From NCBI GenBank assembly GCA_016873635.1, contig VGWJ01000003.1, positions 1 through 64,000 on the forward strand: 64,000 nt of DNA. The letters are read 5' to 3'. The translations under genes were made by a program, and so were the position numbers. Source of the stretch: Lentisphaerota bacterium. GTDB taxonomy: Bacteria > Verrucomicrobiota > Kiritimatiellia > UBA8416 > VGWJ01. Within the stretch, counting starts at the first letter, position 1, and each line of letters starts with the position of its first letter. Below, piece after piece: positions 1 through 61,373 of this stretch. Below the pieces are notes generated by a model. It searched no databases and was not told the origin of the DNA. It saw only the letters and a program-made list of their open reading frames with translations.

Positions 1-683
1 TCCCCGCCGAACCGGCCGTCGGCGGACTGTCCGCGCGCCAGGAAAGCGGCCGCGCGGTCAAGCGCGTCGGCAACGGCCGGCGCCGGTTCCGGGCCGCCCG
101 TCCGGGCCAGCGCCAGCGCGGCCAGGCCGTTGAGCGCCGGAGCGTATTCCGGTCTCCCGCCCAGCTTCTCCACGTCCCACCCGCCGGACGGCGCCTGGCG
201 GGCCAGGAGCCAGGCCAGGCCGCGATCGGCCGCCGGCGGGACGCGTTCCTTGTGGAAGCGGACGTCCCCGTCCGCTCCCGGACCGGCGGCGGGCCGGCGG
301 CTTCCGCCCTGCAGCCATACCGCCGCCAGCGCCACGCCCAGCAGGAGCAGCAGCGCCGCCGCGAAGCGGACAAACCGCCGGGCCGGAGAAACCCGATTGA
401 AGCGCAGAACCCGCGGCGGCGATGCGCGCCAGCGTTTTGCCGGAATCCGTTCCAGGACGCCCGGAAGCAGGTCGCGAACGACCGTCGCCGCGTCCGAACG
501 CCTCAACGCGGCAACGGTCTTCCGCGCGTCCCGGAAAAGCTCCCCGCATTGCGGGCATGCCTGCGCGTGCCGCCTGGCCGCCTCGCCGCCGGCGTCCGGC
601 TCCTGCGAAACCGCCAGCGCCACGAGCTCCTCCGGGGCAGGACACGCATCGGTCCCGTTGCGGGTCTCACGCCGCGTCTTCAC
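1..683 (-). CDS. Membrane anti-sigma factor with C-terminal toroid domain (partial, runs off left edge)
   Basis: Likely binds and silences the ECF sigma factor encoded just upstream. The reading frame begins at a GTG at 683, inside the last codons of the sigma gene, with AAGGAG about 10 bases before it. The first ~45 residues hold a zinc-binding anti-sigma motif HAQACPQC (H-x3-C-x2-C). A single hydrophobic segment lies near residues 108-128. After a linker comes the start of an alpha/alpha-toroid repeat of the squalene cyclase/prenyltransferase type (GLAWLLARQ, SGGWD, AAAFLARGQ). The topology implies a cytoplasmic zinc finger and a periplasmic toroid sensor. The 3' end lies outside the window, so the size and completeness of the toroid are unknown. 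The start and overlap with the sigma gene are read directly; the regulatory role is inferred from family and context. Confidence 0.75.
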   Translation of the reverse strand, partial: MKTRRETRNGTDACPAPEELVALAVSQEPDAGGEAARRHAQACPQCGELFRDARKTVAALRRSDAATVVRDLLPGVLERIPAKRWRASPPRVLRFNRVSPARRFVRFAAALLLLLGVALAAVWLQGGSRRPAAGPGADGDVRFHKERVPPAADRGLAWLLARQAPSGGWDVEKLGGRPEYAPALNGLAALALARTGGPEPAPAVADALDRAAAFLARGQSADGRFGG

Positions 684-1236
684 CGGTCAAGGTCTCCTTC
701 AGCTTGCGCAACGCATGAAACATGCGGCTCTTGACCGTGCCTTCCGGCACGCCGAGGATCCGCGCGATCTCCCGGTACTTGAAGCCCTGATACACGCTCA
801 TCACCACCACGGCCCGCATGTCGCCGGTCAGCCCGCCCAGCGCCGCGGCCACGCGCGCCTTGGCGTCGTCCAGCGCATCGGTTCCCGCCGCCTGTCCGAG
901 TTCAGCCTCGGCCGCCGCCCCCTCGCTTGCCTTGCGGCGGCGCTCCGCGGCCCGCCGGTGGTCGATCCAGGCGCGCCGCGCCAGCAGGTACAGAAACGTC
1001 GTGAACTGCGCCCTGGGACGGTAGCGCTTCCGGTACCTGAAAAGGCGCACGAACGTCTCCTGGGCCAGGTCGTCCGCACTGCTATGATCGCCCATGCGCC
1101 GGAAAAAGTTCACGAGCCCGGCCTGATGCCGCCGCACCAGGACGGCAAACGCGTCCCGGTCCCGCGCCGCGACAAGTCCCATCAGAGCCTGGTCCGAGAG
1201 CGCCGCCGGCTCCGTCACCGTGGTTGGATGCGTCAT
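667..1236 (-). CDS. ECF-type RNA polymerase sigma factor
   Basis: A small sigma-70 family factor (189 residues) expected to redirect RNA polymerase in response to an envelope signal. Region 2 is visible as RDAFAVLVRRHQ followed by DDLAQETFVRLFR (region 2.2) and TFLYLLARRAWIDHRR. Region 4 is YREIARILGVPEGTVKSR, a typical helix-turn-helix. The ATG at 1236 (MTHPTTV) is preferred over a more upstream in-frame ATG because the ECF family starts about 20 residues before the conserved region 2. The anti-sigma gene follows with a 17-base overlap, the usual arrangement for such pairs. It resembles SigW/RpoE-like factors; its regulon cannot be read from here. Confidence 0.92.
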   Translation of the reverse strand: MTHPTTVTEPAALSDQALMGLVAARDRDAFAVLVRRHQAGLVNFFRRMGDHSSADDLAQETFVRLFRYRKRYRPRAQFTTFLYLLARRAWIDHRRAAERRRKASEGAAAEAELGQAAGTDALDDAKARVAAALGGLTGDMRAVVVMSVYQGFKYREIARILGVPEGTVKSRMFHALRKLKETLTGEDAA

Positions 1237-1285
1237 CTCTCCCCGCCGTCTCAAGCGCCGCCCGCGGCGCGGCCGCGCGGAATGA

Positions 1286-1837
1286 ACCATTCGCGCCGCT
1301 CGAACGATTAAACCACATCGTCAGGCGCACGGCCAGATCATCCTCCGGGCGCGGGCGTTCCTGGCCGGAAGTCAGCTGGTCGGCGACTCGCCCGGCGCCG
1401 GCGGTTTCGGCTACGATCCGCCCGCGCCCGGCGGCGCGGAGCGCAAAGGCCCCGCGGACCGCGCCGACCTGAGCAACACCGGCTGGGCCGTGCAGGCCAT
1501 GCGGGTGACCCAGGACCTGGAAGATCCGCGCGTGCAGTCGGCGCGGCACTGGACGGCGCGGCATTGGTCCGTGGAAGAGAACCCGGGCATGGGCCGGCAG
1601 GGGCTTTTCTACTACTACAACATCATGGCCAAGGCGCTGGCCCTGAGCGGATCCGACGCGCTCCGCCGCCCGGCGGGCGACGCGATCCCCTGGAAGCGGG
1701 ACCTCGTCGCGAAACTGGCCGCGATACAGCGCGACGACGGCAGCTGGGTCAACGCCGACAACCAGCTCTGGGAGGGCGACCCCGCGCTCGTCACCTCGTA
1801 TTGCGTCCTCGCCCTGGAATACGCCCTGAGCATGTAG
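1286..1837 (+). pseudogene. 5'-truncated squalene cyclase-like toroid protein
   Basis: An open frame starts after a TGA at 1283-1285 and has no ATG before position 1499; the only plausible internal start is the GTG at 1490. The translated sequence is nevertheless protein-like from about 1325. It carries features I know from the C-terminal half of planctomycete and verrucomicrobial prenyltransferase/squalene-oxidase repeat proteins: GGFGYDPP, DLSNTGWAVQAM, NPGMGRQGLFYYYN, DDGSWVN and GDPALVTSYCVLALEYAL. The N-terminal toroid helices and a proper start are missing, so I read it as a decayed or truncated gene. It lies head-to-head with the sigma gene, whose partner anti-sigma factor carries the same kind of domain. 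A short functional protein from 1490 cannot be excluded. Confidence 0.65.
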
Positions 1838-60247: not shown

Positions 60248-60770
60248 GCGTTTCCCAGTCGGCCGTCTCATCGTCGGCCAGCCCCTCCACGGCCAGCAGA
60301 CGCCGCGCCAGGGCGCGCAACTGCTCGTCCGCGCCGTCCACGGAAGGCGCTTCGGCCTCGCGGTATTCGACGCTCTCCAGCATGCTCAGCAGCGTTCCGA
60401 GCTGCGCGGTCCGGTCCGCCGGAGCGCGCTCCCGCGCGAGCATGAACCAGCCGCCCGCGACCAGCGCCAGCAGCGCGGCATAGGCCAGCGCCGGCCGCAG
60501 GGCTCGCGGAAAGGCCGTAACCCGCGCCGGCGCGTTCGCCGCGGCGCGCGCCGCGCGCCGCACGGCCTCCCGCGCGCCGGCGCCCGGCTCGCCTGCGGGC
60601 AGGTTGGCCGCGGCCAGGGCCGCCAGCCGGCCCAGGGCCGCGCGGTGGTCCCGGCATGCGCCGCACGCCTGCAGATGCTTCTCCAGCGCCGCGGCGGCGC
60701 GGCCCGTCAGCCCGCCGGCGTCCGCCAGCAGCATGTCGTTCCTGAATCCGTCACACGTCTTCATTTTCAT
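60168..60770 (-). CDS. Zinc-finger membrane anti-sigma factor
   Basis: A 200-residue protein downstream of an ECF sigma gene (start overlap of 20 bases). The N-terminal zinc-binding motif H32-x3-C36-x2-C39 (KHLQACGACRDH) and one transmembrane helix (LAYAALLALVAGGWFML, residues ~93-110) fit the ZAS/RsrA-type anti-sigma topology. The C-terminal ~90 residues should be periplasmic and are unlike any domain I know. The last 80 bases are antisense to rsfS, so transcript interference is possible. Confidence 0.85.
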   Translation of the reverse strand: MKMKTCDGFRNDMLLADAGGLTGRAAAALEKHLQACGACRDHRAALGRLAALAAANLPAGEPGAGAREAVRRAARAAANAPARVTAFPRALRPALAYAALLALVAGGWFMLARERAPADRTAQLGTLLSMLESVEYREAEAPSVDGADEQLRALARRLLAVEGLADDETADWETPTADAELPPTTIRSRSIPVAAAETRV

Positions 60771-61317
60771 CCCGCAAACGGACCCTCAGCTTGGCCAGCG
60801 CGTATTGCATGCGGGCCAGGGCCGTGTTGATCGACACGCCCTGCGCCGCCGCGATCGCCTTGAACGGCAGCTCCGCCTCCACGCGCATCAGAAAAACCTC
60901 CTTCTGCTCAAGGGGCAGCTCCGCCACGGCCGCGGCCACGCGTCGCCCGGTCTCCTCGGCCTTCAGCCGGCCGAGCGGATCGGGCTCTTTTCCCGGCAGC
61001 GTCTCCTCCAGCGGCCGCCCGGCCTCCGGCGCCACGTCGAGGCTTACCTCGGGTTTCCGGCGCCGCGCGCGGTCGATGACGATGTTGCGCGCAATTCGCA
61101 CCAGCCATCCCAGGAAGTTGCCCTGCCGGTACGAGCCGATCGCGCGAATGACCCGGAACCACGTTTCCTGGAAGACCTCGTCGGCCTCGCCCTGCCCCTC
61201 CGTCATGTTCAGGATGAATCCGAACAGGGGCCGCTTGTACTTCTCGACAAGCTCTTCCAGGGCGTCCGCGTCGCCCCGCCGGTACCGGGCCAGGACCTCG
61301 TTGTCCGTCATTTCCAT
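60751..61317 (-). CDS. ECF-type RNA polymerase sigma factor
   Basis: A 188-residue sigma-70 family factor of the ECF group. Region 2 is ALEELVEKYKRPLFGFI...DEVFQETWFRVIRAI and the region 2.4 helix is NFLGWLVRIARNIVIDRARR. Region 4 is LPFKAIAAAQGVSINTALARM. The ATG at 61317 gives the standard length. It forms a pair with the anti-sigma gene at 60168-60770, distinct from the pair at the left edge, so at least two separate envelope-stress circuits are present. Confidence 0.93.
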   Translation of the reverse strand: MEMTDNEVLARYRRGDADALEELVEKYKRPLFGFILNMTEGQGEADEVFQETWFRVIRAIGSYRQGNFLGWLVRIARNIVIDRARRRKPEVSLDVAPEAGRPLEETLPGKEPDPLGRLKAEETGRRVAAAVAELPLEQKEVFLMRVEAELPFKAIAAAQGVSINTALARMQYALAKLRVRLRDENEDV

Positions 61318-61373
61318 GTCCGCCGCCGTCCGCCCCGGTCCGGCCACATTCTTACAACGCGCGGGGCCGCCGG

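Follow-up and report, generated by a model that had tools for sequence, protein, structure and literature searches.

A membrane-spanning regulatory switch, consisting of an ECF sigma factor and an anti-sigma factor with a squalene-cyclase-like toroid as its outer half, is predicted at one end of the window (the whole stretch of 64,000 nucleotides analysed, from a Lentisphaerota bacterium). We give a probability of about 0.7 to the reading that the toroid is the sensor of this switch, that a TonB-dependent receptor belongs to its regulon, and that the anti-sigma gene has a promoter inside the sigma gene. Patterns in the DNA suggest that an uptake receptor of the outer membrane and a secreted cup-shaped protein are under the control of the switch, which would also regulate its own inhibitor. 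The features of the window are listed in Table 1.

Organization of the anti-sigma–toroid gene

The sequence-only reading had placed a zinc-type anti-sigma (ZAS) domain, a transmembrane helix, and a toroid in a single frame directly 3′ of an ECF sigma gene, and both this arrangement and its coordinates proved correct. The frame (683..3, minus strand) starts with GTG within the 3′ end of the sigma gene and runs off the contig, as base 1 of the window is the end of contig C3. The sequence to its left was obtained from contig C45, whose end carries the same 222 bases with two mismatches and one amino-acid change, and the frame carried on through C45 gave a joined protein of 457 aa. For the fragment in the window, the anti-sigma part matched NCBIfam NF052375 at E = 3.2e-5, which is below the cut-off, and the toroid part matched squalene cyclase models weakly (3e-3 to 0.2). 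The second half of the 457-aa protein alone matched the Pfam model SQHop_cyclase_C at 9.7e-10. An assembly artefact or a frameshift was ruled out by the 222-bp contig overlap and by the fusion ORFs of relatives, which were unbroken in all 53 that were re-read.

The sigma gene matched Pfam Sigma70_r2 (5.7e-14) and Sigma70_r4_2 (8e-16) and also TIGR02937 (3.6e-25). A second ECF-sigma-like region was observed at 60766-61323 of the window (minus strand), inside a 686-aa frame (E = 1.4e-10).

Table 1. Features of the window discussed in the text
Feature	Position in window	Strand	Remarks
Anti-sigma–toroid gene, codons 1-227 of 457	1..683	-	Rest on contig C45 of the same genome
HxxxCxxC of ZAS domain (residues 39-46)	569-546	-	Within the 227 residues in the window
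Hydrophobic transmembrane helix (residues 104-124)	374-312	-	
First QW-type repeat, start of toroid (from residue ~154)	~224	-	Toroid runs to the protein end
ECF sigma factor gene	667..1290	-	ORF as listed; likelier start is the ATG at 1236
Promoter-like element TGAACT-N16-CGATCA	1085..1112	-	In sigma coding sequence, pointing at the anti-sigma gene
Promoter-like element TGAACC-N16-CGATTA	1283..1310	+	Divergent from sigma, toward the toroid relic
Stand-alone secreted toroid, relic	1286..1834	+	C-terminal part only; ~80-residue internal deletion relative to relatives

Conservation of the fusion

A search of 57 genomes from the order and class of the window's bacterium found 11 full-length or nearly full-length one-frame fusion matches and two weaker ones, and a sigma gene was directly upstream in each of these 13. 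A survey of 240 genomes of the class gave at least 54 fusion loci among the matches listed; they were chosen by eye, with at most seven candidates scored per genome, and further rows of the full-length type (G212:C204, G156:C1, G046:C214, and G122:C438) were left out of the 54. All 53 loci outside the window were fetched, and sigma was directly upstream in 50 of them (among the matches listed). Relatives with names belonged to Kiritimatiellae, Lentisphaerales, Verrucomicrobiota, and a few Planctomycetota MAGs. Judging from these sequences, the fusion is real and old. The HxxxCxxC zinc motif was present in the window's protein and in 29 of the 54 fusion proteins overall (among the matches listed), the others being without it, and zf-HC2 matched nine of 14 fusion members.

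Several variants of the locus were observed. In family f5 (L043 6446-7616 and L044 4596-5763), a second ECF sigma gene with its own small zinc-type anti-sigma gene lies directly 5′ of the fusion pair, forming a tandem of two switches. Longer fusion proteins of 577-578 aa are encoded by a Planctomycetota MAG and an uncultured bacterium (L066 2383-4116 and L067 58-1788); L066 has sigma directly upstream, yet neither of the promoter motifs described below. Shortened anti-sigma toroids occur in families f32 and f39 (L320, L321, L322, L323, and L327), with proteins of about 244-317 aa, or 366 aa for L327 if it is read from the first start codon. These shortened forms, which mostly adjoin a receptor or secreted toroid gene, may be a decaying sensor or a minimal form.

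Fold and predicted function of the toroid

In a 14-member fusion profile (A5), positions 22-83 matched RsiW (5wuq, 9.3e-6) and positions 136-231 matched squalene-hopene cyclase (E = 4e-20); the anti-sigma structure 3hug_B was matched at 1.3e-3. For the relative L056, the AlphaFold model (mean pLDDT 86.8) has one toroid of about 300 residues, and the two-toroid (beta-gamma) architecture is absent from it. Residues 122-436 of this model superimposed on squalene-hopene cyclase with Z 28.1 and an rmsd of 2.7 over 285 aligned residues. The profile, the model, and the structural matches rule out a low-complexity helix in place of the toroid and, together with the conserved fusion, support the earlier view that an ECF anti-sigma factor here has a squalene-cyclase-like toroid for its outer half. 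Further toroid proteins were seen in the window's genome (G000:C14, C15, C19, C40, and C59), one of them in a frame of more than 1300 aa.

The catalytic motif DxDD of the cyclase, a hopanoid-producing enzyme, was found in none of the 54 toroids (among the matches listed), the single match being in a linker. Conservation was higher at the starts of the six inner helices (2.3-3.1 bits) than at the outer-helix starts (1.0-1.8 bits). Because DxDD is absent and the inner-helix mouths are conserved, we read the toroid as a binding cup, not a cyclase. The same two features fit the suggestion, made in the sequence-only reading, that the toroid could bind a hydrophobic ligand or polymer.

Since other alpha/alpha barrels, including GH76 and cellobiose epimerase, followed the cyclase at Z 24-26, the fold alone cannot fix the function. 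These matches would suit a toroid that has stayed an enzyme, an alpha/alpha barrel active on glycans or terpenes, with the anti-sigma part serving simply as its membrane tether. We regard this as very improbable, given the missing DxDD and the sequence, which favours the cyclase clan over glycosidases. Moreover, no Asp or Glu occurs in the invariant toroid columns, D366 and D414 being merely nearly invariant, and half of the toroid is gone in families f39 and f32, yet the switch persists, with sigma and the secreted-toroid or receptor neighbour mostly kept. L322 and L327, which have shortened toroids, also keep the outward site described below. These two families thus indicate that a full cup is not always needed.

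Neighbouring receptor and secreted toroid genes

A TonB-dependent receptor of one family was located within 5 kb of the fusion in 15 of the 54 loci (among the matches listed). This family occurred as one receptor per genome in 70 of the 240 genomes, and its co-occurrence with the fusion exceeded expectation among the matches listed (31, 23, 39, and 147 genomes with both, the fusion only, the receptor only, and neither; Fisher 8e-7, relatedness ignored). A receptor of the family above threshold was absent from 23 of the 54 fusion genomes (among the matches listed), and the receptor can therefore not be the target in every genome. The window's genome has its receptor on contig C10, unlinked to sigma and beside a frame that looks TonB-like by eye.

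The STN domain was sought in the 15 receptors adjoining the fusion, one of which is a 296-aa fragment, and was found in none; they consist of plug and barrel only. The receptors resemble heme receptors, with TIGR01785 matching below its cut-off and PhuR as the nearest solved structure. In heme receptors of such type, the stretch from the FRAP to the NPNL box contains a His. With regard to heme as the ligand, this His was absent by eye from the five receptors inspected.

The family of secreted stand-alone toroids was found in 159 of the 240 genomes, and its members also pair with the receptor away from the fusion; 72 rows of the family listing were used. A secreted toroid adjoined the fusion in six of the 54 loci and was not adjacent in the other 48 (among the matches listed). 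In the window, the plus-strand frame 1286-1834 was 60% identical, over the aligned part, to the sigma-linked secreted toroid of G033. A functional stand-alone gene was rejected here, because the open frame lacks its N-terminal part and about 80 residues from within; we therefore read it as a relic.

The outer toroid might instead sense a protein rather than a small molecule, docking on the secreted toroid, the receptor, or a glycan or lipid carrier, with loss or gain of the contact freeing sigma in an RseB/RseA-like manner. In favour of this, the secreted toroid gene is a likely target of the switch and sometimes its neighbour. Toroids such as the TED domain of complement bind proteins, and the corresponding model PF07678 matched four of the 14 fusion members. 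On the other hand, the strongest conservation, at the mouths of the inner helices, suits a pocket more than an outer face, and most loci have no secreted toroid beside the fusion. We consider protein sensing unlikely, and the binding of a ligand in the cup is preferred below.

Outward promoter-like motif and predicted regulon

An ECF-type promoter-like motif, TGAACC-N16-CGTTTA, was found at these loci. In the form TGAAC-N17-CG[ATC]T, it was directed away from sigma in 23 of 51 loci and toward it in one of 51; the shuffle control gave a mean of 0.155 and a maximum of 2, and other spacings gave 0-1 (relatedness ignored). In the stretch read, the outward motif was not found in 28 of the 51 loci. 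One locus, L040, had no site in this count, and its site appeared once a longer stretch was read. Where a receptor or secreted toroid gene adjoins sigma, the motif was present in 16 of 20 loci, a count that includes the window with its relic; where neither does, it was present in seven of 31. In L058, from a Planctomycetota MAG, the in-gene and outward sites are both present, and the outward one faces a divergent secreted toroid.

The sites were also counted from the target side. Away from the fusion, this count covered 20 of the 38 secreted toroids known from fusion genomes and, for fusion-less genomes, 24 of 39 receptors along with 20 of 28 secreted toroids. In 14 of 19 linked loci, a site immediately precedes the receptor or secreted toroid gene; in L048, L161, and L175 it was further upstream of the receptor on the same strand, with a TonB-like frame between site and receptor in L048 and L161, and two other linked loci were without a site. 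Of the linked receptors, 14 of 15 had an operon site (11 directly before the receptor and three further upstream). Unlinked receptors of fusion genomes had a site in 13 of 16, with none of 16 on the reverse strand, and the receptor operon thus has a site in 27 of the 31 fusion genomes with a receptor, L048, L161, and L175 counted. Unlinked secreted toroids had a site in 10 of 20 cases in fusion genomes versus two of 20 in others. Counting against the proposed regulon, receptors of genomes scored as fusion-less had a site in nine of 24; five of these nine genomes hold a shortened fusion.

In the window's genome, the strict pattern occurred at exactly two sites, the outward one in the window and one upstream of the C10 receptor (C10:61079-61106), and the reversed control gave none. 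About two sites would be expected by chance according to our own base-composition estimate, and it is therefore their places, not their number, that count as evidence. When the pattern was loosened to this genome's version of the -10 (CGATNA), just two sites were gained, the in-gene one and another within an unrelated frame on C70. The results suggest that TGAACC-N16-CGTTTA likely marks the sigma regulon, a link first made in this analysis.

Promoter-like element within the sigma coding sequence

The same motif also lies inside the sigma gene in sense orientation, where the codons specify L-N-F-F-x-x-M-G-(V/A); this holds for 52 of 56 genes and 24 of 25 families. The codon holding the last base of the motif ended in T in 54 of 56 genes, compared with the 10.9 that codon usage would predict (z = 15.3). 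The four codon columns with the strongest synonymous constraint among 180 were all within the element. In the same genes, GTN or GCN codons ended in T in 42 of 44 cases at the site versus 180 of 1643 elsewhere; these codons were counted with a protein regular expression that missed 10 of the 56 genes. The motif was absent from all 24 paralogous ECF genes of six genomes, whose toroid-linked sigma genes carried it in six of six. The 24 controls were the matches that became loci, and three further matches were left out.

The in-gene and outward sites share the -35, the -10, and the exact spacing, with a T-tract after the -35. In 17 of 21 loci, the two sites agree in the variable base of the -10 (permutation p = 0.00025, relatedness ignored), and all three sites of the window's genome bear the rarer CGAT. 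The genomes of family f30 (L194 and L195) were without the in-gene motif and had the outward motif, with CGTT.

We infer from this likeness and codon constraint that the element may be an active promoter recognized by the sigma factor in whose gene it lies. It might instead be something other than a promoter, such as a sigma-dependent pause site or an mRNA feature, leaving the outward motif alone as the promoter of the regulon. Intragenic promoter-like sequences can indeed be pause sites or silent binding sites (PMC10771440). The identical -35, -10, and spacing, the T-tract, and the absence from paralogues speak against this explanation, as does a known counterpart in Corynebacterium glutamicum, where the SigH-dependent promoter PrshA within sigH drives rshA (PMC3489674). 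We judge it improbable, and the same counterpart provides a precedent for the negative loop that an in-gene promoter would create.

Proposed switch mechanism

In the proposed switch, the cytoplasmic zinc-type domain would hold the sigma factor, and the outer DxDD-less toroid would serve as the sensor. A compound, or a partner loaded with a ligand, would enter the periplasm via the TonB-dependent receptor and bind the cup, and this binding would make the anti-sigma factor release sigma. The freed sigma factor would transcribe the receptor operon, often with a TonB-like gene, from TGAACC-N16-CGTTTA promoters and, in many genomes, the secreted toroid. It would also transcribe the anti-sigma gene from the promoter hidden in its own coding sequence, closing a negative loop. 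In the window's genome, the receptor is apart from sigma but bears the motif, and the sigma-linked secreted toroid appears to have decayed to the relic.

Receptors of the FecA type pass their signal on by way of an N-terminal domain in contact with the regulator (PMC9249621). The receptors here have no such domain, and the toroid therefore probably receives the signal either in the form of a transported compound or through the secreted toroid. A wider proposal is FecR-independent sensing of TonB-dependent uptake, in which a terpene-cyclase fold acts as a periplasmic ligand cup, the ligand may be shared with, or carried by, a paired secreted cup from that clan, the sigma regulon is class-wide, and the anti-sigma promoter is inside the sigma gene. 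It is put forward tentatively, at somewhat less than even odds.

Many anti-sigma factors have sensor parts without an assigned role. Here, the fold is recognizable, the kind of ligand pocket is known, the predicted regulon comprises very few genes, and the usual signalling domain is missing from the receptor, which opens ligand, route, and release to direct tests. The putative in-gene promoter would be a clear case of protein and regulatory code written on the same bases and readable from codon constraint alone.

Comparison with known systems

No report of a fusion between an anti-sigma factor and a squalene-cyclase-clan toroid was found in the open-licence literature searched. We file the system as a variant of ECF/anti-sigma signalling rather than as a cyclase enzyme or a FecIR member; defining features of the latter two were sought and were not found. 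Like the class I zinc-type membrane anti-sigma factors RsiW, RskA, and RseA, the fusion protein has an N-terminal anti-sigma domain, HxxxCxxC, and one transmembrane helix, and its gene directly follows an ECF sigma gene. By analogy with them, it is a putative inhibitor that binds its cognate sigma factor. It differs from them in its outer part, an alpha/alpha toroid of about 300 residues from the squalene-cyclase clan. This toroid, with its QW-type repeats, is shared with squalene-hopene cyclase and the type II terpene cyclases; however, it is single, without DxDD, and fused to anti-sigma and transmembrane parts.

As in FecI/FecR/FecA, an ECF sigma factor and a membrane regulator are linked to a TonB-dependent receptor, although its regulation here is predicted. 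In contrast to that system, the receptors are without the N-terminal signalling domain, and the toroid replaces the FecR domain, which gave no match at E <= 0.01 in the 14 fusion proteins searched. The sigH–rshA system of C. glutamicum is alike in that a sigma-dependent promoter inside the sigma coding sequence drives the anti-sigma gene (PMC3489674), whereas here such a promoter is predicted from codon constraint in 24 families and would serve a membrane anti-sigma factor with a toroid.
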